DNA of 20,284 nucleotides from a virus. The first letter of the stretch is position 1, and the number at the start of each line of letters is the position of its first letter. The position numbers and the translations under genes are program-made. The stretch lies in the IMG/VR virus record IMGVR_UViG_3300008262_000623, positions 1-20,284 of that record, one strand, 5' to 3'. Of the stretch, positions 3,207-14,524 are shown piece after piece. A model generated the notes under the pieces. The model did no database searches and was not told where the DNA came from. It saw nothing but the letters and a program-made list of their open reading frames with translations.

Positions 3207-3442
3207 TAAATGAGCGTTATTAGATAGGCACACAACGCACCTAATAAAGTGAGCAAGATACTTAATGAGTTAAACATTATTGTTCGTTTTTTGACGGCCT
3301 CAAATAACTCAATTAAGATTGAAACGGCGAGCATCGCAATCATCGCGGGTCGCAATTCAAGCACAAGCATCATAAGAGCAAACACAACCAGTCCGATGAC
3401 GAATTGCTTTGCCTTTCCTTTTATCGCGTCACTTAGGTTCAT
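3206..3442 (-). CDS. Small integral membrane protein, 78 residues
   Basis: Starts MNLSDAIKGKAKQF, then two close hydrophobic segments (IGLVVFALMMLVLE and AMIAMLAVSILIELF), a basic loop (AVKKRT), and a third segment ending the protein (ILLTLLGALCAYLITL). It is probably a three-pass inner membrane protein. It overlaps the upstream nuclease gene by 14 bases and the downstream gene by one. Function not recognised; superinfection exclusion or an antiholin-like role is possible but nothing in the sequence shows it. Confidence 0.6.
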   Translation of the reverse strand: MNLSDAIKGKAKQFVIGLVVFALMMLVLELRPAMIAMLAVSILIELFEAVKKRTIMFNSLSILLTLLGALCAYLITLI

Positions 3443-3905
3443 ATATCTTTTTAAATAGGAACGGAGTAAACGCGGTTTTTTCTTCCCATCGAGTCACCTC
3501 GTCGTATTTGATGACCCACATTTTCGCGTAGTTGGGTGCGGCAATTCGGATAAATGCGTAGTGTGTCACATCGGACTTTTTGCGATGTGCTTTGGTGTTC
3601 ACCCGGAACTCATCACCGCTGATCCACTTGACATCGATTCGACTTGTGCCGACGATGACGTCGGGTTCGGGTACTGGTTTCCCTCCGAGGAGCACGCCCA
3701 TCGTGTAAGGTTTCCCCTCTTTTTGGAGATAGTAAGCAAACACCATTTCACAAAGGACGCCGAATCGACTGATTTTGTCCTCTTGCGTTCCCCGTGAAAA
3801 TTCGGGGAATAGTGTACGCAACTCCTCATTCGATTCGCTTCGCATCCGACCGATGACATCAGCGACCTCGTTGAGATATTCGGGGTATGTGAAGGACGCG
3901 ATCAT
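3429..3905 (-). CDS. PD-(D/E)XK-fold nuclease-like protein
   Basis: 158 residues. The restriction-endonuclease-like core is visible: a helix with Glu53 (FGVLCEMVFAYYLQKEG), Asp82 in EPDVIVG, then Asp91-x-Lys93 in RIDVKWISGDEF, followed by a helix and strand (THYAFIRIAAP). The spacing fits E...PD...(D/E)xK. It could be a phage endonuclease, a Holliday junction resolvase-type enzyme or a DNA-end processing nuclease. Two genes from ninG, it probably belongs to the recombination set. Substrate is unknown. Start ATG overlaps the stop of the 53-residue ORF upstream. Confidence 0.6.
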   Translation of the reverse strand: MIASFTYPEYLNEVADVIGRMRSESNEELRTLFPEFSRGTQEDKISRFGVLCEMVFAYYLQKEGKPYTMGVLLGGKPVPEPDVIVGTSRIDVKWISGDEFRVNTKAHRKKSDVTHYAFIRIAAPNYAKMWVIKYDEVTRWEEKTAFTPFLFKKIYEPK

Positions 3906-4063
3906 AGGTATTGCCTTTTGCCCGTTAATTTGTAAAGCGATGTGTTGACCTTGTTCAATTTAGTTCGGACTTGTGATTCGCTCAAGTCGTCGTTTTTTCG
4001 TAGCAATTCCCAACGTTTCTCGCGGAGTTGCATCAATTTGAGGATTTCGTTTTCGGTATACAT
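3902..4063 (-). CDS. Small charged protein, 53 residues
   Basis: This short ORF fills the gap between ninG and the nuclease gene and overlaps both (TAATG with ninG, ATGA with the nuclease). The product starts MYTENEILKLMQLREKRWEL and continues with LSESQVRTKLNKVN; it looks like two amphipathic helices. No family recognised. The double overlap and neighbour-like codons support a real gene. Confidence 0.6.
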   Translation of the reverse strand: MYTENEILKLMQLREKRWELLRKNDDLSESQVRTKLNKVNTSLYKLTGKRQYL

Positions 4064-4587
4064 TATTTGAGTGATTTTAGGAGTTTACGATAGTGTTGTA
4101 TGAGGTTTTTTATTTCGTCAAGCGATAGCCGCAATGGTTCATTTTTGATTTGATGAAGGTGATTGTATTGACTTGTTCCAATTCGGTCAGGGAGTCGCAA
4201 CGAGTATTCGATAAGGTTGCCGTGTTTATGCTGGTTGCACTCGACACACTGGCCGTGACAATTGTCCTCGTTGAATCTTAAGTTCGGATAAGAACCCACC
4301 GAGTAGAAGTGACCCGCATCATATTTGCCGACGAGCGGTTTATCACAACTGATGCAAGGTCGGTGCTTGTCTCGCTCCCGGATGTATGCGTTGAATGCTT
4401 GTTGCAAGTCTCGTCGCCAGTGACTAACTGACTTGACCCGTTCGCGCATTGCTTTGATTTCACGCTTTGATTTTTTATCTTCGACTCGTTTCGCATATGA
4501 GATGATGCATTGAGGTTTGGTGCAAGTTGGTTGCAGTGATGAATAGGTCGGTTCAAAGAACTCGCGACAAATCTTGCATTTTTTCAT
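4063..4587 (-). CDS. ninG: NinG/Rap recombination endonuclease
   Basis: 174 residues, matching the lambda NinG (Rap) layout throughout. An N-terminal zinc finger is Cys4, Cys7, Cys22, Cys27 (MKKCKICREFFEP, CTKPQC), followed by a basic helical linker. Then come FNAYIRERD, PCISCDK (Cys78, Cys81), YDAGHFYSVGS (90-98), LRFNEDNCHGQC (103-114) and CNQHKHGN. The DAGH/NCHGQC..CN segment is the HNH-like nuclease core. Rap cuts branched recombination intermediates in Red-type recombination, which fits the annealing protein and exonuclease encoded upstream in the same block. Confidence 0.92.
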   Translation of the reverse strand: MKKCKICREFFEPTYSSLQPTCTKPQCIISYAKRVEDKKSKREIKAMRERVKSVSHWRRDLQQAFNAYIRERDKHRPCISCDKPLVGKYDAGHFYSVGSYPNLRFNEDNCHGQCVECNQHKHGNLIEYSLRLPDRIGTSQYNHLHQIKNEPLRLSLDEIKNLIQHYRKLLKSLK

Positions 4588-4602
4588 TTATGAAGGCCGC
4601 AA

Positions 4603-4780
4603 CTATGAGGTCACGATAGCGCGAATATCGTGAAGGAAATCGATTGCTCTGCTTTCGTTGGTGTCTCCAATTAGATGACACTCGTCCCACAACTTTGACG
4701 CATCCGTTATGCAAATGAAATAAGACGTTATTGTCGTTCACTATGTCGCACGACTTGTCGGTATTATAGTAGATTCTCAT
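4603..4780 (-). pseudogene. Small gene with apparent frameshift (about 59 residues if restored)
   Basis: From ATG at 4780 (TAATG overlap with the upstream ORF) the frame reads MRIYYNTDKSCDIVNDNNV. Near 4713-4723 the coding look moves to the +1 frame, which reads ICITDASKLWDECHLIGD, then NESRAIDFLHDIRAIVTS, and stops with TAG at 4603-4605, just before ninG. The original frame instead runs on to 4553 as a Arg/Ser-rich peptide overlapping ninG by 35 bases. Removing one T from the TTT at 4718-4720 would give a continuous reading. It may be a sequencing or assembly indel, a real mutation, or recoding. Function unknown. Confidence 0.45.
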
Positions 4781-4929
4781 TAGAAAAGGGTTAAATTGGT
4801 TTGATTTGGTTGATTGGACTTATTGCCTTTTGTGGCATTGATTCGGTCAAGTAATTCAATCACTTGTTGTTTGTGATAGTAGTGTTGTGGACTATTCTCG
4901 ACCTTGCTTTTGAGTTCCTCGATAGTCAT
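4780..4929 (-). CDS. Small hydrophilic protein, 49 residues
   Basis: ORF between dnaB and the frameshifted gene, TAATG overlaps at both ends. Product starts MTIEELKSKVENSPQHYY and ends in an Asn/Gln/Thr-rich tail (NQPNQTNLTLF). No family recognised. Position directly after dnaB might suggest a helicase accessory role, but this is only context. Confidence 0.55.
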   Translation of the reverse strand: MTIEELKSKVENSPQHYYHKQQVIELLDRINATKGNKSNQPNQTNLTLF

Positions 4930-6254
4930 TAAAATGGATTTTCGGTATAGTCGGTGTATTTCATTATGGACGGGTGAAATCGCATTTGTGCAATTCCGAT
5001 GCTCCCGTTTCGTTGCTTGGCGACGATGTACTCACCCAGTCCCTCGGTTGAATTCCCTCGTTCATCGCGCATCATATCGTAATACTCAGGACGAAATAAG
5101 AAAGTCACAACGTCGGCATCTTGTTCGAGCGACCCGGATTCGCGAAGGTCGGAGAGTAACGGTCTTTTTTCGCTCCTCGATTCCACACCTCTCGAAAGTT
5201 GGGCGAGCACGATCATCGGAATGTTGCATTCTTTTGCGATTAACTTGAGATTGCGACTGATATGACTTAATTCTTGCTCACGACTGACGCCCTTGGCCTT
5301 TGTTCCACTGGTCATCAATTGGACGTAATCGACGAACACTACCTCGATTCCGTTTTTGTGTTGCAGTCTCTTGACTTTCGCCCTCAGGTCAATGACTGAG
5401 AGAGCGGGTGTGTCGTCGATGTATATCGGAAGGGCGTTCAATTGGTCAAGATATCGATAGTATGTCTTGAGTGTCTCATCGTCGAGGCGATATTTCATCA
5501 ACGTCGCCCCATCAATTCCCGAAAGCATCGACATCAATCGATAAGTGATTTGCTGAGATGACATCTCAAGTGAGAAAAATGCAACTGGCGTCCCTCTCCG
5601 GGCAAGTTCGAGAACCTCAGTCAATGCCATTGCCGTCTTTCCCATTGCGGGACGTCCCGCCATATACATCAGGTCGGACTTTTGATGCCCTCCGATGAGC
5701 GTGTCGATGCTTTTGATACTGGTTGAATATCCACTCACCTCGCTTGAGGAGTTCATTCGGGTGATGATGCTCTTGGTCACCTCATTGGAGAGTTGACTGA
5801 TGTGTTTGACGTCGCTTTTGATATTAGCCGCGAGAATCGATTCAAGTTTCGTGATGACCTCTGCGTATAAATCGAATGCATCCGACTCGTCTATCGTCGT
5901 CTTGTCGGCAATTTCGAGGCATATGTTCCTCATTTGTCTCATTAGGTGAAACTCATAAAGCAATTTGCACCAAGTATCGAGGTTTGCGGTCGATGCGATT
6001 CGGTTTGTGAGTTGTGAGAGATAGGTCGCTCCGACTGATTCAAGTTCACCAGTCTTGCGGAGGTGTCGATTGATAGTTAAAAGGTCAACCGGGTCACCTT
6101 GGTTGGTCACTTGAGCGATTGCCGTGTGGATCGTTTGGTGTCTTGGATGAAAATACATTTCTGGTGTCACTTGTGAAATGACATTTGCCACACTTGAGGG
6201 TTCGAGTAGCATCGCACCGAGAATGCATTGTTCGATTTCAATATCATAGTTCAT
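4929..6254 (-). CDS. dnaB: Replicative DNA helicase DnaB
   Basis: 441 residues, usual length. The N-terminal domain is intact (EQCILGAMLLEP, LLTINRHLRKTGELESVGA). The RecA-like motor shows Walker A GRPAMGKT at 200-207, the SLEMS segment at 228-232, Walker B VVFVDYVQL at 305-313, the AQLSR segment at 351-355, and LLSDLRESGSLEQDADVV, all hallmarks of DnaB. It unwinds the phage replication fork as a hexamer. Start overlaps the stop of the replication initiator-like gene (ATGA), the usual initiator/loader-helicase neighbourhood. Confidence 0.96.
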   Translation of the reverse strand: MNYDIEIEQCILGAMLLEPSSVANVISQVTPEMYFHPRHQTIHTAIAQVTNQGDPVDLLTINRHLRKTGELESVGATYLSQLTNRIASTANLDTWCKLLYEFHLMRQMRNICLEIADKTTIDESDAFDLYAEVITKLESILAANIKSDVKHISQLSNEVTKSIITRMNSSSEVSGYSTSIKSIDTLIGGHQKSDLMYMAGRPAMGKTAMALTEVLELARRGTPVAFFSLEMSSQQITYRLMSMLSGIDGATLMKYRLDDETLKTYYRYLDQLNALPIYIDDTPALSVIDLRAKVKRLQHKNGIEVVFVDYVQLMTSGTKAKGVSREQELSHISRNLKLIAKECNIPMIVLAQLSRGVESRSEKRPLLSDLRESGSLEQDADVVTFLFRPEYYDMMRDERGNSTEGLGEYIVAKQRNGSIGIAQMRFHPSIMKYTDYTENPF

Positions 6255-6880
6255 ACTGGTCGGTATTTGGATGATTGTTGATAGGTTGGTTGATTTGATT
6301 CCTTGGCCTTGTGTTCATCTTTAAACCACACGCCTCTCATTTTTTGTTTCCAATTGATGACTGGTTTGCCTCGCGAGTCGCGCCAACTGGCCGAGTCGTA
6401 ATAGTTGAAAGCGTTTGATGCTATGTCGGAGCGATAACCGTTCGCAGTAAAAAACTCAATCACCTCTTGTTCGGTTGGCGGTTCAATTCGAGTGCGGACA
6501 TTATTGCCATTGCTTTTCGGTGTGCGTATCTTATCTACGTCAGTAGATACATTTACATTCTCATTTACATTCTCATTTACATTTACATTAGCATCAACTT
6601 TGCTTTCATCTTGCTTTCGCCTTGCTTTACGTTTGCTTGTATTTTGCTTTATCTCGTTGAATTTCAACTTGTCTCGCTTGCCGTTTGCATATCGTTTCAA
6701 GTTTGCGTCGAGTTGTGGTTTAATCAATCGGAAGATTGTTCGTGATACGCCAGTGAGTTCAATCTCATTAAAATTGAGTGAGTATTCGCAGATTGCTCTC
6801 CATACCTCCGACTGGTTGGTATCAGGAAGGTCGCAAATCGCCTCGTAAAACGAGCGGTAAATAATAAAGGATTCTCTCAT
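6251..6880 (-). CDS. Replication initiator-like protein (DUF6291-type N-terminus)
   Basis: 209 residues from ATG at 6880. An in-frame extension to 7003 exists, but its 41 residues do not look family-like and the typical N-terminus is MRESFIIYRSFYEAICDLPD. The first ~85 residues (RAICEYSLNF, FRLIKPQLDANLKRYANG) match the DUF6291 pattern. A Lys/Arg-rich stretch and an Asn/Val/Glu repeat form a linker. The C-terminus (EQEVIEFFTANGY, NAFNYYDSASWRD, INWKQKMRGVWF) resembles the end of phage replication initiator/DnaD-like proteins. It lies just upstream of dnaB and probably helps load it. Confidence 0.65.
   Translation of the reverse strand: MRESFIIYRSFYEAICDLPDTNQSEVWRAICEYSLNFNEIELTGVSRTIFRLIKPQLDANLKRYANGKRDKLKFNEIKQNTSKRKARRKQDESKVDANVNVNENVNENVNVSTDVDKIRTPKSNGNNVRTRIEPPTEQEVIEFFTANGYRSDIASNAFNYYDSASWRDSRGKPVINWKQKMRGVWFKDEHKAKESNQPTYQQSSKYRPV
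6551..6590. repeat. Short tandem repeat in the linker of the replication protein
   Basis: Two copies of ATTTACATTCTC followed by two copies of ATTTAC and a related unit, encoding alternating Asn/Val/Glu on the minus strand. Units are multiples of six bases, so copy-number changes keep the frame and only change linker length. Confidence 0.75.
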
Positions 6881-7030
6881 CGAAAAAATACCCCCCAAAT
6901 CTCGCGAAGGACTATCCGACGGTCGATTGACCAATTGGCAACGCGAAATAAGGAGGGATTTTTTAATTTTTTCATTCGGATAGTCAGCACAATTATACTC
7001 CATTAAATGAATAAGGCGAGTGAAATCTAT
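6881..7030 (-). promoter_or_regulatory. Leader region with 10-bp inverted repeat and CCAATTGG palindrome
   Basis: 150 bases between the YqaJ stop and the chosen start of the replication gene. It contains a perfect 10-bp inverted repeat, GACTATCCGA at 6910-6919 and TCGGATAGTC at 6976-6985. Inside it are a perfect palindrome CCAATTGG (6931-6938), a small dyad GGTC-GATT-GACC (6921-6932) and two CGCGAA copies. No clear TAnnTTTG box was seen. It could be an operator, a leader RNA structure or part of an origin. Part of it would be coding if the upstream ATG at 7003 is used. Confidence 0.4.
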
Positions 7031-7732
7031 TTACAACGCGCTCCACTTATTGACAATGTCTCGTCGATAGGCATCAGCACGCTCAATCCGCTCAAGCAAC
7101 TCACCAACTTTCAGCGCGTCGAACTCGATGAGTGTGTGATGTAGCATTCGATGATCGGGTTGACGCGGGTCGAACGACGCAAACACCCAGTGCGTCCGAT
7201 TAAACGTCAGCATATTCAATTGAACTTGCCAATAATAATCTTCATTGATGTCGTAAAGCGAAGCACCGTCAACAACGCGCGAATGCATAAAGTGATTGAT
7301 TGAATTGAATGGGCATTTGACCTCAACTCCGACATCGATTCCGAGTTCCGCGTGATGCATCATCGCATCGGGCGAACAACCAGTGTAATCGTTGAACAAT
7401 TTGAATGAAGGTTTCAACTCGGTTCGGTCGTTAGGTGAATTGATGGCGCGTTGAACGTGCTTGAGTGCAATCTCCTCCCATTCATTCCCCCATTCAATCG
7501 CGCGACCAAATGCCTCATCGGTCGTTTGACCCGTGATGACCTCCATTGCTTTCCCGATGATGTACTTTTCGGCGGTCTGCGACCACTTGCCCGATTCCTT
7601 GTCGGCCTTGGTGCGAGGGTCAGTCATCAGCGCGGAGATTCCGCTTCCCGTAAACTTGCCGAGACGCACCTTGTCCCAAGCGATTGAATTTTGTGCGATG
7701 TGCATCATCGCGTCTTGAATATACTGGTTCAT
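7031..7732 (-). CDS. YqaJ-family (lambda Exo-like) 5'-3' exonuclease
   Basis: 233 residues, typical length. The lambda exonuclease/YqaJ core is readable: RLGKFTGSGISALM near the N-terminus, GNEWEEIAL with Glu86/87, the PD motif in GCSPDAMM (Asp122), ExK in GVEVKCP (Glu137, Lys139), and YYWQVQLNMLTF (Gln169/Gln171) closing the site. It would resect duplex ends so that the annealing protein, encoded just upstream with an ATGA-type overlap, can load. Together they form a Red-like recombination pair. Confidence 0.9.
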   Translation of the reverse strand: MNQYIQDAMMHIAQNSIAWDKVRLGKFTGSGISALMTDPRTKADKESGKWSQTAEKYIIGKAMEVITGQTTDEAFGRAIEWGNEWEEIALKHVQRAINSPNDRTELKPSFKLFNDYTGCSPDAMMHHAELGIDVGVEVKCPFNSINHFMHSRVVDGASLYDINEDYYWQVQLNMLTFNRTHWVFASFDPRQPDHRMLHHTLIEFDALKVGELLERIERADAYRRDIVNKWSAL

Positions 7733-8391
7733 TGTCTTGATTGAATAAGTTGGTTTAATTTGGTTTTTTGTTCATCGCTCATCAAATCGGCGAGCGTCTC
7801 CATTGCATTCCGAATCTCGAACTCATCTGCTCCGCTTTTGATGCCTTGCTCAAGTTTTAACATCGTGCTCTCCGGGAGTTCGGTGACTGGTCGTTGCAAC
7901 TTAAAAGGGCGATAGGTGTCGGCGTTCTTTCGGTTAAGGTCGCGACCGAATATCTTGCCGAGTGACTGAGCGGCATTTTTGAGACATTCCGCTTTCAACT
8001 TAGGAAACGCAAGGTCAAGGGCGTTCGGTTTCTTATTCGACGGGGAAAGTGCCCATTGATTCCGTGCTTGCGGGTCGTTTTTCAGCGAGTCAGGGACTCG
8101 GTCAACCATTATGATGACCGATGCACATCCGAGTCGTTTAATGCGCTCCCCGGTAATCGGATGAACGACGACCAATTCGAGACAACCTTGCACCTCATTT
8201 GCGATTGTATTCCAATTGAAATTTTCGGTTGACCACTGGCCGAAAAACAACTCGTCGAGGGTCATTTCGATGTGACTGATGACAAGGGTTCGCGCTTTGC
8301 CATCGGGCGTTGACTCAATTCCCTCGTCGGAGGGTTGAGAATTCAAACGTTGATTGAACTTTTGGAGGGCGTCTATCTTATTCGTGTCCAT
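7729..8391 (-). CDS. Single-strand annealing protein (Rad52/Sak-like)
   Basis: 220 residues. KARTLVISHIEMTLDELFFGQW near residue 32, a beta-rich middle (CLELVVVHPITGERIKRLG), then ALDLAFPKLKAECLKNAAQS at 124-143 followed by LGKIFGRDLNRK resemble the core of Rad52-superfamily phage annealing proteins, where a conserved Ala/Leu/Lys-rich helix is followed by LG..(F/L)GR.L. A helical C-terminus (SDEQKTKLNQLIQ) follows. Partnership with the adjacent YqaJ exonuclease strongly supports a recombinase role. The exact subfamily (Rad52/Sak versus ERF-like) cannot be fixed by eye. Confidence 0.65.
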   Translation of the reverse strand: MDTNKIDALQKFNQRLNSQPSDEGIESTPDGKARTLVISHIEMTLDELFFGQWSTENFNWNTIANEVQGCLELVVVHPITGERIKRLGCASVIIMVDRVPDSLKNDPQARNQWALSPSNKKPNALDLAFPKLKAECLKNAAQSLGKIFGRDLNRKNADTYRPFKLQRPVTELPESTMLKLEQGIKSGADEFEIRNAMETLADLMSDEQKTKLNQLIQSRQ

Positions 8392-8683
8392 CGTATGGGA
8401 GTGCTTGAGTTAATGAATCAATGACTTTTGCGTACAATTGAATGAATCTCTCGCTATCAATTGGAACGACATCGAAATTGTTGAGCAGTTCGCCAACCCG
8501 GTCGTTTATGGCGATGAGACCGCCCGCCTTGTTGTCGATGATCTCGATAACCTTGTTTTCATCAATGATGCAAAAGCATTGCCAGTCGCGTTGTTTATAC
8601 GCGCAGTAGTACGGCAATTCGATTGTGATTGTATCAACCGCCATCGGGCGACTGATAACGTGAGTGATTGTCTTCTTTGACAT
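8378..8683 (-). CDS. Hypothetical protein, 101 residues
   Basis: Begins MSKKTITHVISRPMAVDTIT and contains CFCIIDENKVIEIIDNKAG and LNNFDVVPIDSERFIQLYAK. Mixed alpha/beta, soluble, no membrane segment. It overlaps the annealing protein gene by 14 bases. No family recognised; context suggests a recombination or replication accessory. Confidence 0.6.
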   Translation of the reverse strand: MSKKTITHVISRPMAVDTITIELPYYCAYKQRDWQCFCIIDENKVIEIIDNKAGGLIAINDRVGELLNNFDVVPIDSERFIQLYAKVIDSLTQALPYDGHE

Positions 8684-8695
8684 ATTAAAAAGGGT

Positions 8696-8896
8696 TTAAA
8701 AATTGCTTAATAATTCGAGTGACCAGTCGCGACCAATGCCGCCCGCGATGAAATTGCCATTGTTGTCCTCGCGATAGTCGAGGTCAAGGGAATCACATCG
8801 CTCGATGAACGAGTTGAGTGCTTCGCGAATGTTGCGGAATTCGATGACTTGCGAGGTGCGATTCGGCAAGTTGTTGATGATAAGAGTGTAAGACAT
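8696..8896 (-). CDS. Hypothetical protein, 66 residues
   Basis: I place the start at ATG 8896 (MSYTLIINNLPNRTSQVIEF) rather than the longer frame to 8965, because the next upstream gene ends at 8920 and the 8897-8938 DNA is a low-complexity TTGA-type repeat. The product continues NIREALNSFIERCDSLDL and ends with RDWSLELLSNF. No family recognised. Confidence 0.55.
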   Translation of the reverse strand: MSYTLIINNLPNRTSQVIEFRNIREALNSFIERCDSLDLDYREDNNGNFIAGGIGRDWSLELLSNF

Positions 8897-8938
8897 ATGA
8901 TTGAGGATTGATTGATTGATTACTTGGTTGATTGATTG
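8897..8938. repeat. TTGA/ATTG tetranucleotide repeat tract
   Basis: Plus strand reads as several imperfect ATTG units in two clusters (8906-8920 and 8928-8938) across the stop of the 57-residue gene and the leader of the next gene. Simple-sequence slippage is the likely origin. A leader role is possible but not shown. Confidence 0.5.
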
Positions 8939-9093
8939 CATTTTTCGCAACACAACGTAGTCCATTGTGCATCTTGAACGTATGATTGAAATCGTTCTAA
9001 GGAAAGTGCGTCTTTATATTGGTTTGACAATCCGCACAACGTGCGCTTGCCATTGAGAGTTGCGTGAAATCTATTTTGGTTCTTAAATGACAT
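8920..9093 (-). CDS. Small Cys-containing protein, 57 residues
   Basis: ATG at 9093 to TAA at 8920. Product starts MSFKNQNRFHATLNGKRTLC and has a CxxC-like end (TLCCEKCNQSTK) plus an earlier Cys20, so a single zinc site made of Cys20 with Cys48/49 and Cys52 is conceivable. HATLNGKRTLCGLS followed later by CCEKC resembles small zinc-binding phage proteins. Codon use matches the neighbours. It fills most of an apparent 275-base gap. Confidence 0.55.
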   Translation of the reverse strand: MSFKNQNRFHATLNGKRTLCGLSNQYKDALSLERFQSYVQDAQWTTLCCEKCNQSTK

Positions 9094-9137
9094 TGCGAGT
9101 ATGAGATTTGAATTGATTACTGGGTAAGTAAATGAAA

Positions 9138-9156
9138 GCGCGTTGTCGAGTCGCGC
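9138..9156 (-). terminator. Possible weak hairpin after the 82-residue gene
   Basis: GCGCG (9138-9142) and CGCGC (9152-9156) can pair around a nine-base loop just downstream (minus strand) of the gene ending at 9171. The following bases on the minus strand (TTTCATTTA) are only weakly U-rich, so it may be an attenuator or nothing. Confidence 0.25.
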
Positions 9157-9170
9157 CCCTCGATGGTTTT

Positions 9171-9419
9171 TTATTTTATACCAAAAGGTTTCAATGCTTG
9201 TTGAAAAATGGGGTGCATATTAGAATCGGAGTTTTTCGCCTCTAATTTTTTTTTCTTATCTAAGAATTGCGCCCAAAGTTTTAAGAGTGTTTTATTATCT
9301 TCTCCGAATTCCATATCGAGTATTCTCAGCGCGTCCATTGCTGATTCGATATCCGATATATCTACGCAATTACTTACTTTCAAGTATGGGTTGTTTTTGA
9401 TTTTTTCCGTGAGTGTCAT
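9171..9419 (-). CDS. Hypothetical helical protein, 82 residues; first gene after the 9.4-kb promoter
   Basis: Starts MTLTEKIKNNPYLKVSNC and continues with an acidic helix (DISDIESAMDALRILD) and a Lys-rich helix (LDKKKKLEAKNSD). No family recognised. It is the first gene after a convincing minus-strand promoter and operator (9442-9468), so it heads the annealing/exonuclease/replication transcript. Promoter-proximal small genes in phages are often regulators or host-takeover proteins, but there is no direct evidence here. Confidence 0.65.
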   Translation of the reverse strand: MTLTEKIKNNPYLKVSNCVDISDIESAMDALRILDMEFGEDNKTLLKLWAQFLDKKKKLEAKNSDSNMHPIFQQALKPFGIK

Positions 9420-9441: not shown

Positions 9442-9449
9442 CAAATATA
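9442..9449 (-). promoter_or_regulatory. Bacteroidota-type -7 promoter box (P1)
   Basis: Minus strand TATATTTG is an exact match to TAnnTTTG and lies about 22 bases upstream of ATG 9419. No TTTG is present at the expected -33 position, so the promoter may need an activator or a different sigma factor. Confidence 0.65.
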
Positions 9450-9468
9450 TGTCGCATTTTTGCTACAT
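9449..9468. promoter_or_regulatory. 20-bp operator-like dyad O1
   Basis: ATGTCGC-ATTTTT-GCTACAT: the 7-base arms match at six of seven positions. It overlaps the -7 box of P1 by one base, where a bound repressor would block RNA polymerase. A copy with the same geometry lies at 12578-12597. Confidence 0.6.
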
Positions 9469-9560
9469 CCGACACCTGAGTGAAAATAATTTTCATCGCG
9501 CTATGTTAATAACTGCGATAAACTCAATACTGACGCGGGTTTCGTTGTGGAAAAACTATT

Positions 9561-10859
9561 TTAAACGTATGAGTATTTGCCGTAATTCGGCAACAACTCA
9601 AAGAACATTCGCATCATAATCATATCAGCGTAGTCGGGAGATAGGCCGTGCATCCGTTGAATTTCATCTTTACTGGTGACCGTCAACTTGCTATCGCCGT
9701 CAGGGTTTTTACGGCGAATCATATCGAGTTCCTTGACGATCGTTTCCTTGTATTCGCTTGGGAATATCACACGACCGAATTCGATGAACTCTGCGAGTTT
9801 AAAATAACACTCCGCTTTGAGATTGACAAACCTCTCCGGGTGCGATGCTTTGGATCCATTGCGGAAACCTCGCGTTCCTTTCACTATGTCGCAGACACCT
9901 CCTCCGACACCGTCCTCATCGATGATGATATTGCCTAACTTGACGTATTTGAGATTTGCAAGGTTCTTAATTGCCTCGGCAACTTCGGTCACACGCTTTC
10001 GGCGTAACTCGATGACTTGAATAAGTGACAACCCTCGCCACAATCCAATGACCGACCTATCCTTTCCGAGTCGGGCAATGTCGGCGGTGATAAACAACTC
10101 GCCAGTACCGTCAGGTTCACGAAAGCATCGGAGCACATCATCGGTGTTAAATATGGCGTCGTTTGAATCATCAAAGTTCCAATCGCCATCGAGCAACCTC
10201 TTGCGGTCAACCTCAGGCAATTTTGAGAGGGTTTCGATGTATGACGGCGGTAGGTGTGGGTTGTCGATAGCACGCGCTTGAATAAAGGCCATATAAGGAG
10301 GCAACTCCCCGGTCGTCCAAGGCGAATAAAACTCGTTATACAACCAACCTTTTGACGGGTTGCAAGTGAGGAGTCCTTTCGGTGCGAGATTGTACTCATT
10401 CAATTTGAACCTGACGCGACTGCGAACTATATCAACCGCTTTCTTTGATACCTGAGAACACTCGTCGATGTAGAAATCAGTGACCTCAAGCGATCCAAGT
10501 GAGTCGAAATTCGCATCGGACGGATATGCGAACAAGTCCTTTAGCAGAATCTCGCTCCCATTTGCGAACTGGATGATGTTTGATTGAGCATTGAATTGAT
10601 AGTGTTTGTTGGCAACAAGGCCAAACATTCCCGCGACCTCGAAAAACGTCTTTAAAGTAGTCTTTTTAAGCGTATCGAGTTTAGAGCGACCTATGAGTCC
10701 CCGCGTGCCTTTATATTTCAACCTCCGTTGTATTTGCCAAGCGCAACCGATGAACGATTTCGACCCCCCCGCACCGCCTCCGAAGAGCACAAGTTCAAAA
10801 GGCGAGTCGGTCGCCAATGCTTTCAAACATTCGATTTGCTTGGGGAGAAACTCAATCAT
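9561..10859 (-). CDS. terL: Large terminase subunit
   Basis: 432 residues from ATG 10859, chosen over an in-frame TTG at 10871 because it forms an ATGA overlap with the upstream stop. The packaging ATPase shows a Walker-A-like GGGAGGSKS (27-35), Walker B DFYIDE (128-133) and motif III LLTCNPS (163-169). The RNase-H-like nuclease half has FITADIARLGKD (Asp260), IIIDEDGVGGG (Asp314, Asp316) and LSPDYADM (Asp409, Asp412). It pumps DNA into the prohead and cuts concatemers. Unusually it is read with the early genes, opposite to the portal and the other small-terminase candidate. Confidence 0.95.
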   Translation of the reverse strand: MIEFLPKQIECLKALATDSPFELVLFGGGAGGSKSFIGCAWQIQRRLKYKGTRGLIGRSKLDTLKKTTLKTFFEVAGMFGLVANKHYQFNAQSNIIQFANGSEILLKDLFAYPSDANFDSLGSLEVTDFYIDECSQVSKKAVDIVRSRVRFKLNEYNLAPKGLLTCNPSKGWLYNEFYSPWTTGELPPYMAFIQARAIDNPHLPPSYIETLSKLPEVDRKRLLDGDWNFDDSNDAIFNTDDVLRCFREPDGTGELFITADIARLGKDRSVIGLWRGLSLIQVIELRRKRVTEVAEAIKNLANLKYVKLGNIIIDEDGVGGGVCDIVKGTRGFRNGSKASHPERFVNLKAECYFKLAEFIEFGRVIFPSEYKETIVKELDMIRRKNPDGDSKLTVTSKDEIQRMHGLSPDYADMIMMRMFFELLPNYGKYSYV

Positions 10860-11176
10860 CGGATAAACCAACTATTTTCTTTCAACTTTGTCAATTGACG
10901 GATATACTTGTTGTGACTGACCCCGATGACCGAGGAGATATGACTTGCGATATTGATTCCCTCCGAATGGAGTCGCATCAATTCCGATGTTGCCTTGTCA
11001 ACTGAAATCATCCGCTGACTGGCGTACTTGAGGAGGCGTTCGTGATGCAAGTCTTGAATGAGTTGAGAGTTGAGAGCGTGCTCTTTTTTGCTCATCTTAG
11101 GCGGTTCAAGATTCATCAACTCCCTCTCGGTCATCGCATCATCTTTGACATCAATTAGGTTGTCGAACTTAGGCAT
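10856..11176 (-). CDS. Small HTH-like protein upstream of terL; possible small terminase
   Basis: 106 residues, hydrophilic and helical. Residues about 59-96 (SVDKATSELMRLHSEGINIA, then IGVSHNKYIRQL) read like a helix-turn-helix. The stop overlaps the terL start as ATGA, the place where a small terminase subunit is normally encoded. A second small-terminase candidate lies at 14186 on the other strand, and that one has a clearer family signature. Alternatives are a transcription regulator or terminase accessory. Confidence 0.5.
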   Translation of the reverse strand: MPKFDNLIDVKDDAMTERELMNLEPPKMSKKEHALNSQLIQDLHHERLLKYASQRMISVDKATSELMRLHSEGINIASHISSVIGVSHNKYIRQLTKLKENSWFIR

Positions 11177-11643
11177 ACTTTAGTATAAATAAGACCGTTT
11201 AAATATAGGCAATCGGCAATCTTGTTCATCGTGTCGTGAATATCCTTGTCGGTAATGTAAAGGTCGGCGATATTGGTTCGACAATGGATGATGAGTGAAT
11301 GATTGTACTTGTTCGCGAAATATGACCCGACTTGCATTAAGGTGAGTTTTTTGGTGTCAACCAGTTCGGCACAAGCGCAATAAATAACCATCTGCCTCGC
11401 CATCACCTCGCGCCGCTTTCGACTGGTTGTTTCTCGGATATCCTTGACGCCAGTTAGCATCGTGACACACGCGCAAATATGGTCGAAGGTCGCCTCGATA
11501 CTTTGCTCCTCGGCATCGAATTGAGCGATTCGGAGATTGACGTCACAACGAACCTCAGGCATCAACATCGGATGAATCGCGATAAGTGCTTTTTTATGGT
11601 CGCGGGGGTTAATGAGCGACAAGAGGGTCTCAATGGTGTTCAT
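11155..11643 (-). CDS. DnaA domain IV-like DNA-binding protein
   Basis: 162 residues with no ATPase domain. The second half carries the DnaA C-terminal signature: SRKRREVMARQMVIYCA (74-90), LTLMQVGSYFANKYNHSLIIH (100-120) and CRTNIADLY, to be compared with SRKRE.V.ARQ.AMYLAR....SL..IG..FG.RDHSTV.HA...I in bacterial DnaA. In DnaA this domain binds DnaA boxes. The N-terminal ~70 residues (CDVNLRIAQFDAEEQ) are not recognised. It probably binds phage or host origin sites, recruiting or competing with host DnaA. It overlaps both neighbours by a few bases. Confidence 0.75.
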   Translation of the reverse strand: MNTIETLLSLINPRDHKKALIAIHPMLMPEVRCDVNLRIAQFDAEEQSIEATFDHICACVTMLTGVKDIRETTSRKRREVMARQMVIYCACAELVDTKKLTLMQVGSYFANKYNHSLIIHCRTNIADLYITDKDIHDTMNKIADCLYLNGLIYTKVCLSSTT

Positions 11644-11933
11644 TTGTCACCTCCTTTGTATTTGGCAATCCAATTCGGTAGTTTATCAATGTAAGAATCA
11701 TTGTCAATAAATCCAATGACCAACCATTTGAACCCCTCATTCAATTCTACTATTAAGGTATAAGGTTGTTTATCGCGGGAATGCTTGCATATTGAAAACC
11801 GATAAAAATCTTCATATTCAGTCCAAGAGGCAACCCATTCGATTTGCAATAATTCGTCAAGTGAATTGAATTCCCTTGTTTCGTTTTCATAACCCGAAAA
11901 AAAAGCGGGTCGATATTGAATAATAAAGTTCAT
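11640..11933 (-). CDS. Hypothetical protein, 97 residues
   Basis: Start placed at ATG 11933 (MNFIIQYRPAFFSGYENETR), which overlaps the upstream zinc-ribbon gene stop as ATGA; a longer frame to 11981 would intrude on that gene. It is aromatic-rich (WVASWTEYEDFYRF, GFKWLVIGFIDND) and predicted beta-rich, and ends PNWIAKYKGGDK. No family recognised. Confidence 0.6.
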   Translation of the reverse strand: MNFIIQYRPAFFSGYENETREFNSLDELLQIEWVASWTEYEDFYRFSICKHSRDKQPYTLIVELNEGFKWLVIGFIDNDSYIDKLPNWIAKYKGGDK

Positions 11934-12100
11934 TCGATAGTATATAAGGATTCCCAAATAAACCGCCCACAAACCGAGCACTTGAGTTGCTTCTCACCTT
12001 TATCAACTCGCTCGATAGTGTCATCAATAAAGTCACGATAACTCAAGTCCTCAGGTTCGCGATGCGGACACTTAGAACGGAAGGTCGTTGCCACTTTCAT
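11930..12100 (-). CDS. Small zinc-ribbon-like protein, 56 residues
   Basis: Short ORF filling the gap between the SSB-tailed gene and the 97-residue gene. It has an early CPH pair (Cys11, His13) and a late CSVCGRFIW knuckle, enough for a C/H-x-CxxC zinc site. The start is ATG 12100, inside the last codons of the upstream gene (29-base overlap), or GTG 12094. The stop overlaps the next start as ATGA. Function unknown. Confidence 0.55.
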   Translation of the reverse strand: MKVATTFRSKCPHREPEDLSYRDFIDDTIERVDKGEKQLKCSVCGRFIWESLYTIE

Positions 12101-12311
12101 CGGACTCAACTGGTGCTTTTGGTTTGATTTCGGTCGTTTCGACTTTCATCGATAGAAACTTTCCGTTTTTCCCCTCCTTAACCCAAGCGACGAGGTTGTA
12201 AAGGTCGCCGCCGATTTTGATGTTGCCTCGATAGTCGGGTTGCTTATCCTCGGTCTTTTTAGTGTTACGGAACAACGCTCCGAATTTCTCTTGTGGTTCA
12301 AAATTGCTCAT
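12072..12311 (-). CDS. Small protein with SSB-type C-terminal tail
   Basis: 79 residues. The body (EKFGALFRNTKKTEDKQPDYRGN, then DLYNLVAWVKEGKNGKFLSM) looks like a minimal beta-barrel of the kind in short phage proteins of this pattern. The last residues DESGNDLPF closely match the acidic DDDLPF tip of bacterial SSB that docks repair and replication proteins. It is the second gene of the early transcript, upstream of recombination and replication functions. It may be a mini-SSB or a competitor for the SSB-tip binding pocket. Fold and DNA binding are inferred. Confidence 0.6.
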   Translation of the reverse strand: MSNFEPQEKFGALFRNTKKTEDKQPDYRGNIKIGGDLYNLVAWVKEGKNGKFLSMKVETTEIKPKAPVESDESGNDLPF

Positions 12312-12312
12312 C

Positions 12313-12522
12313 TTATTGATTGTTTATGTGATTACTTACTATATGACAAATGTCCTTATTGGTTACCTCACTCAATCGGCGAAGGTGTTTATATTGAATC
12401 GCGTCAGGTCGTTCAATCCATCGGTATATCGTCCATCGAGACACCCGCAGTTTTTTCGCGCACAAGTCCCGCGTTCCGAACTCATCCAGTATGAACTCCT
12501 CTAATTTATTTACTTTTGCCAT
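12313..12522 (-). CDS. Small helix-turn-helix regulator (Cro-like)
   Basis: 69 residues from ATG 12522; a TTG two codons upstream is less likely. DLCAKKLRVSRWTIYRWIER (19-38) is a clear helix-turn-helix followed by YKHLRRLSEVTNKDI, the layout of small Cro/XRE-type or YdaS-like phage repressors. It is the first gene of the minus-strand block and lies next to a divergent promoter region with a 20-bp dyad (12578-12597) repeated at 9449-9468. The simplest reading is that it binds these dyads, autoregulating itself and controlling the divergent sigma-like gene and the second early promoter. Confidence 0.75.
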   Translation of the reverse strand: MAKVNKLEEFILDEFGTRDLCAKKLRVSRWTIYRWIERPDAIQYKHLRRLSEVTNKDICHIVSNHINNQ

Positions 12523-12561
12523 TGTCAATCGTTTTAGGTCGCCCGCATATCAGTCACGGGT

Positions 12562-12569
12562 TACATTTG
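12562..12569 (+). promoter_or_regulatory. Plus-strand -7 box for the sigma-like gene (P3)
   Basis: TACATTTG fits TAnnTTTG and lies about 37 bases upstream of the TTG start at 12607. There is no clear TTTG at -33; the nearest is TTTT at 12532-12535, 26 bases away. The expected start site is just before the operator dyad. Confidence 0.45.
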
Positions 12570-12570
12570 G

Positions 12571-12578
12571 CAAAGATA
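12571..12578 (-). promoter_or_regulatory. Minus-strand -7 box for the early block (P2)
   Basis: Minus strand TATCTTTG fits TAnnTTTG. A TTTG at 12602-12605, 23 bases upstream, is a plausible -33 element. The box lies about 49 bases upstream of ATG 12522. Confidence 0.65.
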
Positions 12579-12597
12579 TGTAAGTTATTCGCTACAT
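12578..12597. promoter_or_regulatory. 20-bp operator-like dyad O2
   Basis: ATGTAAG-TTATTC-GCTACAT: the arms match at five of seven positions and the right arm is identical to O1. It overlaps the -7 box of P2 by one base, exactly as O1 does at P1, and lies just downstream of the expected start of the plus-strand promoter. Confidence 0.6.
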
Positions 12598-12606
12598 CGA
12601 ACAAAG

Positions 12607-13119
12607 TTGACAACTTGCGACATAAATATCGAATTGAGTAAACACCTCCCCATATGGCAACGCTTCGCAAGCGGGTTGATGCGTGACCGGGTTAAGGGCG
12701 ATGACCTACTTTCGGAAACGATGCTCAAGATATTGGAGAACCAAGGCGACAAGTTGTGTCAACTGGCGAGTGATGGCGGTCTATTCGCATACGTCAACCG
12801 CTCACTTTATTTGATGGCAATCGACAAGTCAAGTCGATACGGTACAAAATATCGCTCATTTGAAACAAGATGGGTCACTGAATCAACCGCGCACGAAAAG
12901 GAACGTGATGCGCCTTGGTTGGGTAGCAGACTCGACAACGAATATCTCGACGCATATATATCGATGATGCCCGAACTCGACGCAACAATGCTCCGACTTT
13001 ATATGATGACCGATTTCAGTTATCAAAAGTGCTCGGACGAAACGGGAATCGAGGTCAAGACCCTATATAAGTTAGTGGAGAAAGCAATTAACAAAATCAA
13101 ACGCAATGTTCAATTTTAA
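12607..13119 (+). CDS. Phage RNA polymerase sigma-like factor
   Basis: 170 residues with an ECF-like two-part layout. Residues ~16-80 resemble sigma region 2 (WQRFASGLMRDRVKGDDLLS, ETMLKILEN, AYVNRSLYLMAIDKSSR), and ~120-165 resemble region 4 (MPELDATMLRLYMMTDFSYQ, ETGIEVKTLYKLVEKAINKI). The start is the TTG at 12607 or a second TTG at 12634; no ATG precedes region 2. As first gene of the plus block it could redirect host RNA polymerase to phage late promoters. Divergence from the HTH regulator suggests control by the shared operator. Confidence 0.65.
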   Translation: MTTCDINIELSKHLPIWQRFASGLMRDRVKGDDLLSETMLKILENQGDKLCQLASDGGLFAYVNRSLYLMAIDKSSRYGTKYRSFETRWVTESTAHEKERDAPWLGSRLDNEYLDAYISMMPELDATMLRLYMMTDFSYQKCSDETGIEVKTLYKLVEKAINKIKRNVQF

Positions 13120-14185: not shown

Positions 14186-14524
14186 ATGAACCACCAAAAC
14201 CCGACATTAAAAAAGGCAATGGTCGAAGCGATGAAAAAATCGCTCGGCATTGTCTCGACCGCTTGCGCCGAGGTAGGTATCAATCGGAGCACTCACTATG
14301 ACTGGTTGAGAACCGATGAGGAGTACAAGCAAGAGATTGAGCACATTGACGAATCAGTCATCGATTTCGCTGAGTCTAAGTTGCATAAGTTGATTGACGG
14401 CGGCGATGTCGCTTCGACAATCTTCTATCTCAAGACCAAGGGCAAAAAACGCGGGTTCGTGGAACGCACCGAATTGACGGGCAACGAGGGTCAACCTATC
14501 ATTCATATTGCCGCGAACCTATGA
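14186..14524 (+). CDS. Small terminase-like protein (phBC6A51-type HTH)
   Basis: 112 residues. AMKKSLGIVSTACAEVGINR (35-codon N-terminal region) followed by STHYDWLRTDEEYKQEIEHI is the homeodomain-like HTH of the phBC6A51 group. DFAESKLHKLIDGGDVAS, then TIFYLKTKGKKRGFVERTEL is the conserved continuation found in phage small terminase candidates. It would recognise the packaging site and recruit terL. terL is encoded about 3.3 kb away on the opposite strand. Stop overlaps the next start (ATGA). Confidence 0.7.
   Translation: MNHQNPTLKKAMVEAMKKSLGIVSTACAEVGINRSTHYDWLRTDEEYKQEIEHIDESVIDFAESKLHKLIDGGDVASTIFYLKTKGKKRGFVERTELTGNEGQPIIHIAANL

Follow-up and report, generated by a model that had tools for sequence, protein, structure and literature searches.

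What regulates the two operons on the minus strand of IMG/VR record IMGVR_UViG_3300008262_000623, and do both answer to the same protein? The window analyzed here is this whole record (20,284 bases), which is itself probably a piece of a tailed-phage genome. Its minus-strand genes from ∼12.5 down to 3.4 kb form a block of two operons that both look early from their gene content. A preliminary description had noted a dyad at the promoter of each operon and had proposed a 69-residue helix-turn-helix (HTH) protein, encoded beside one of the two sites, as the common regulator. We find that the dyads are probably operators of this Cro/Xre-type HTH protein, through which it would repress its own operon as well as the replication operon.

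The promoter of the operon that begins with the HTH gene (P_sig) has its −7 box, TATCTTTG, at 12571–12578 on the minus strand. It is abutted by the putative operator O1, whose 18-bp core (12579–12596, minus strand) reads TGTAGCGAATAACTTACA. At the promoter of the second operon (P_term) the −7 box TATATTTG lies at 9442–9449 (minus strand) and is abutted by the putative operator O2, TGTAGCAAAAATGCGACA, at 9450–9467 (minus strand). Both boxes fit TAHHTTTG, the refined form of the −7 element of Flavobacterium johnsoniae (PMC6847099). Read on the minus strand, dyad and box are ATGTAGCGAATAACTTACATATCTTTG and ATGTAGCAAAAATGCGACATATATTTG, with the common layout of an 18-bp dyad TGTAGC-N6-(G/C)NNACA and a TAnnTTTG box immediately after it. 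The preliminary description was accurate in placing minus-strand TAnnTTTG boxes at 9.4 and 12.6 kb, in letting a 20-bp dyad overlap each of them by one base (9449–9468, ATGTCGCATTTTTGCTACAT; 12578–12597, ATGTAAGTTATTCGCTACAT) and in the length of the HTH protein (69 aa, 12313–12522, minus strand; ATG at 12522, stop ending at 12313). The 18-bp dyad stops right before the box at each site.

The dyads are imperfect (5/9 and 6/9 symmetric positions); O1 and O2 have a common 8-base run in register and are identical in 12 of 18 dyad bases. When the two 60-bp upstream regions were dinucleotide-shuffled, none of 40,000 shuffles equaled both the palindromy and the common 8-base run, and with the conservation in relatives described below this led us to reject a chance origin of the dyads. 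Scored against TGTAGC-N6-GCTACA, the 18-mers upstream of the two boxes reach 10 and 11 of 12, and no 18-mer upstream of the window's other eight TAnnTTTG boxes scores above 5/12. The −33 element (TTTG) is weak in F. johnsoniae (PMC6847099); in the window, the box of the HTH promoter has its nearest TTG 23 bp upstream, and P_term has none in range.

Is this arrangement maintained in other phages? We compared about 90 loci of uncultivated Bacteroidota phages, obtained from IMG/VR scans with the window's large terminase and its sigma-factor-like protein (170 aa, 12607–13119, plus strand), which is encoded divergently from the HTH gene. Because some contigs are represented by two of these loci, counts per contig are fairer. 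A total of 69 TAnnTTTG boxes were preceded by an 18-mer scoring at least 9 of 12, all of them at the two promoters, and none of the remaining 404 boxes in the loci reached this threshold. The shared offset on which the preliminary description had built its proposal recurs: most relatives, and most HTH-bearing lineages, keep the dyad in the same position relative to the −7 box at both promoters, though flanking sequence and first genes vary. In long relatives, no record has more than two matches to the composite of dyad and box (≤3 mismatches), and every match is at one of the same two promoters. When IMG/VR was scanned for the composite without mismatches, nine contigs were hit. Eight belong to relatives already known, and the ninth, L158, comes from a record that encodes the HTH protein, the sigma-like protein and the terminase as well. 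In L024, L027 and L034 the dyad-to-box distance is shifted by +1 or the dyad overlaps the box by four bases (−4). Since the dyad is kept despite the shifted spacing, which would be expected if it is separate from the promoter core, it is more than an extension of the promoter.

In order to assign a protein to the dyad, we counted co-occurrence in the 64 contigs with a readable HTH-to-sigma region. A site counted as a dyad if it matched at least 8/12 arm bases no more than one base away from the box, or if it had an exact TGTAGC arm. HTH gene and dyad are both present in 40 contigs and both absent in 20; in four contigs (L016, L058, L059 and L062) the HTH gene is accompanied by a site that is variant or displaced, and the dyad never occurs without the gene. 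The dyad is thus absent in 20/20 HTH-less contigs of the same terminase family. None of the other genes of the region tracks the dyad across the 64 contigs. The SSB-like gene (12072–12311) and that for a 106-aa protein (10856–11176) are found both with and without it. That the dyads are bound by a different phage protein, such as the sigma-like or the DnaA-domain-like one (11155–11643), is conceivable in that both belong to DNA-binding families and are encoded beside the sites, but we consider it very unlikely: the sigma-like gene is found in 64/64 contigs, dyad or not, and the DnaA-like protein was detected in 20 dyad-less contigs and missed in 16 dyad-bearing ones. Relatives that keep the −7 box and have lost the dyad, which the preliminary description had named as a case against its proposal, do occur (L060–L080, L082–L089), but these are exactly the HTH-less phages. 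A scan with an HTH profile brought in contigs new to the analysis, and those long enough bear the dyad at the predicted place. Conservation in HTH-bearing lineages, absence from the 20 HTH-less contigs and the lack of any other tracking gene support the claim that the HTH protein would be the common regulator of both dyads.

The same counts bear on the possibility that a regulator of the host bacterium binds the dyads, which would couple early phage genes to the host's condition and leave the HTH protein as a bystander. The promoters are of the host primary-sigma type (PMC6847099), and similar inverted repeats bind Bacteroidota host regulators, among which HcpR2 was assigned GTAACnnnnGTTAC (PMC1274295). 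However, the dyad tracks the HTH gene and not the phage family: the 20 HTH-less contigs are without it despite their sigma-like gene and terminase; this counterargument is weakened to the extent that HTH-less lineages may have other hosts. The spacing of the HcpR2 motif differs from that of the dyads, for which reason we rejected an HcpR2-like host site. Altogether we regard a host regulator as improbable.

One apparent exception, L010, seemed to lack the HTH gene and to keep the second dyad; it was excluded as rearranged or misassembled. In its positions 1–1300 the sigma-like gene and a 143-aa gene are inverted with respect to the relatives, the HTH gene is missing, foreign-looking sequence stands at the left end, and the junction has inverted repeats of the TGACACTTT...AAAGTGTCA type. 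Different inverted repeats precede some −7 boxes in HTH-less relatives (L060, L064–L080, L082–L089, L092–L096), for example CACAATAGAAAATTGTG, or GTGTAAAAAGTTACAC in L094. These repeats suggest that regulators and operators were swapped between lineages.

Sites and protein also vary within the HTH-bearing phages. In the L053–L057 clade the recognition helix reads TRMTAHRW or TRTTTYRW instead of SR[WF]T.YRW. The right arm in this clade is mostly changed to GTTACA at both promoters; this co-variation of helix and arm is suggestive of recognition of the dyad by the HTH protein. The L104–L112 lineage carries arm variants of the TGTTGC...GAGTCA type, which in L107 are common to both promoters.

What kind of protein would occupy these sites? 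An AlphaFold2 model of the HTH protein (predicted local distance difference test, pLDDT, 92.9) shows five helices in a lambda-repressor/Cro-type fold, and the closest folds in the PDB found with Foldseek are TP901-1 MOR, C.BclI, P22 Cro, SinR and HigA. Sequence identity to the structural matches is low (14–31%). By predicted fold and gene layout the protein is a Cro/Xre-type member. Three weak PHROG hits (3218, 24579 and 2538; E 0.001 to 0.03) are named small terminase subunit, and in a large clade (L024, L025, L027, L034) the HTH gene directly precedes the large terminase gene, as if the protein were that subunit and the dyads served packaging. We hold this to be extremely unlikely, as the dyads stand at promoters, nearly fixed with respect to the −7 box and in two distant copies, the window's HTH gene is the first of its operon, four genes from the terminase, and a separate candidate for the subunit is encoded at 14186–14524 on the plus strand (weak Sf6_terminase match). 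Having weak PHROG hits only and a disfavoring position, the HTH protein was rejected as a small terminase subunit.

We also considered a lysogeny repressor or a CI–Cro switch. Among related records of 26–33 kb, which are possibly partial, no tyrosine integrase (Phage_integrase) was found in 12, no resolvase in 10 and no second HTH_3 protein in nine, and a lysogeny switch was rejected on this basis. The phage accordingly seems to have a Cro-type repressor but to lack a lysogeny switch, although failure to find these genes in records that may be partial does not prove that they are missing.

Several observations weigh against the assignment of the HTH protein to the two dyads. Presence and absence of HTH gene and dyad cluster on the terminase tree, corresponding to few independent gains or losses, and the co-variation of helix and arm is confined to one clade and counts as one event. 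The right arm is poorly kept at the HTH promoter (mean 3.2/6 symmetric positions, compared with 5.0/6 at P_term), the L012/L048 lineage has no site behind the terminase, and the four HTH-bearing contigs with a variant or displaced site lack a standard dyad abutting P_sig. Finally, the Foldseek E-values to PDB entries are above 0.1, and the Pfam matches of the protein stay under their cut-offs (HTH_3, 19.5 bits versus 23; P22_Cro, 12.4 versus 30.2).

How could such a protein act on the two operons? After entry, the host polymerase would transcribe both minus-strand operons, and the HTH protein would accumulate. A dimer would then occupy the 18 bp immediately upstream of the −7 box, the polymerase's binding place, and stop initiation. 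Its own operon (SSB-like, DnaA-like, terminase) and the replication operon would accordingly be read early and damped as the HTH protein builds up. In 29 of the 32 contigs with both sites the P_term operator is the more symmetric one (equal in 3). Because of this higher symmetry (5.0 versus 3.2 of 6) P_term would perhaps be closed first, with self-repression after. Alternatively, the HTH protein could bind the dyads and activate the early promoters from the spacer, in the manner of MerR. Consistent with this idea, the operator has the −7 box on one side and the region of the weak −33 element on the other, and P_term has no TTG in range. The protein is, however, small and consists of a Cro/Xre domain that lacks a ligand or coiled-coil portion, operators abutting a −7 box usually block the polymerase, and the first transcript must precede any HTH protein because its gene lies behind the same operator. 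We therefore consider activation unlikely and retain repression as the probable function.

The intergenic region of the HTH and sigma-like genes contains a further element. A plus-strand −7 box overlooked in the preliminary description, TACATTTG at 12562–12569, fits TAHHTTTG and is the candidate promoter of the sigma-like gene. It is one base from the minus-strand box at 12571–12578, giving the arrangement TACATTTG-G-CAAAGATA (12562–12578). A search of all loci for TAnnTTTG-N0-3-CAAAnnTA found such paired boxes, with spacers N0-2, in 22 contigs (18 of a first set and 4 of a new set), and dinucleotide-shuffled loci (800 kb) contained no paired boxes. In the first set 17/18 pairs are located in the HTH/sigma intergenic region; the remaining one is at a contig end and belongs to the L085–L089 lineage, whose members have the pair at the HTH/sigma region. 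In the new set all four are at this intergenic region. The pair spans several lineages, including HTH-less phages (L082–L089), and is absent in the large clade in which the HTH gene is apart from the sigma gene.

In F. johnsoniae transcription starts 4–5 nt from the −7 element (PMC6847099). By this distance the starts would be near 12565–12566 leftward and 12574–12575 rightward. Each start would lie in or beside the −7 box of the other, so the polymerase could transcribe one way or the other but not both at once, as at symmetric E. coli promoters (PMC12825309). The bidirectional promoters of E. coli described by Warman et al. (PMC12825309) have a near-symmetric −10 core to which polymerase binds in either orientation, one excluding the other. 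A symmetric core element is present here as well, as a symmetry of the sequence. Unlike the E. coli promoters, it is composed of two back-to-back Bacteroidota −7 boxes flanked on one side by a putative operator, belongs to a phage locus and is kept across several lineages.

On the predicted starts, O1 would cover roughly positions +4 to +23 of the transcript of the sigma gene. A dimer bound to O1 could then also act on the opposing sigma-gene promoter, whose −7 box stands back to back with that of the HTH promoter; the sigma-like gene would be either repressed together with both operons or released from competition. One operator may thus control three promoters. As a tentative and rather doubtful extension of the repressor reading, we propose that a Cro-like dimer shuts off both its own promoter and that of the replication operon and also acts on the sigma promoter, with the mutually exclusive −7 boxes choosing between an early and a sigma-led late program in a phage without lysogeny.

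Like P22 Cro, TP901-1 MOR and lambda Cro, the HTH protein is a small single-domain protein of predicted lambda-repressor fold encoded by the first gene of an early-looking operon, and as with Cro-type repressors the dyad operators would overlap early promoters, one of them its own. In contrast to temperate-phage Cro, the search of the long relatives revealed neither an integrase nor a partner repressor; furthermore, each promoter has one operator here instead of three, and the promoters are of the TAnnTTTG type. The pairing of a symmetric promoter with a Cro-type operator is the less usual part.

With regard to the remaining genes, the rest of the first operon (9561–12311, minus strand) comprises small proteins besides the genes named above and ends with the large terminase subunit (9561–10871). 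The second operon (3429–9419, minus strand) starts with an 82-aa protein (9171–9419) and includes a YqaJ-type nuclease (7031–7732), the DnaB helicase (4929–6254), NinG (4063–4587) and further genes. Beyond 12.6 kb the sigma-like gene (PHROG 1740, E 9e-10; Sigma70_r4_2 match under cut-off) is followed by mainly plus-strand genes. The large terminase gene thus lies in the early-looking minus-strand operon, separate from the small-subunit candidate on the plus strand, and in relatives, too, the large terminase and sigma-like genes are on opposite strands.

Between the large terminase gene and P_term we observed two DnaA-box-like sites on the minus strand, TTATTAACA (9504–9512) and TTTTCCACA (9546–9554), 42 bp apart. 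In 32/77 relatives this 110-bp stretch likewise contains such sites, compared with 0.016 per 110 bp elsewhere, and in some relatives the boxes are a perfect TTATCCACA. The DnaA-domain-IV-like protein of the first operon matches Bac_DnaA_C with E 6.5e-5 (1.2e-7 in the relative L067). It is possible that this stretch is a replication origin with a phage-made initiator.

The nearest annotated phage by terminase is Flavobacterium phage 11b (46% identity), and bacterial genome assemblies gave a single match, on a contig of a metagenome bin assigned to Flavobacteriaceae; for both reasons the host is probably a flavobacterium or a relative. Phage 11b differs from the window in that all its annotated genes are on one strand and none matches the HTH or sigma-like protein. 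Among 50,697 annotated phage records no match to either protein was found, so a direct comparison with a cultured system is precluded, and the open-license literature on Flavobacterium phage operators and repressors yielded nothing on this phage group.

Gene regulation in Bacteroidota phages is little worked out, and the group studied here is without an annotated relative bearing the HTH or the sigma-like protein. The analysis provides a candidate repressor together with two putative operators of defined sequence, and phages that have or lack this pair form a natural comparison set, so that early-gene control becomes testable on host TAnnTTTG promoters. With the back-to-back −7 boxes, bidirectional promoters, described in E. 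coli, would reach into Bacteroidota phages, in a setting where the choice of direction is meaningful. If the proposed repression is true, the HTH protein and its operator could be used as a small repressor tool in Bacteroidota genetics.

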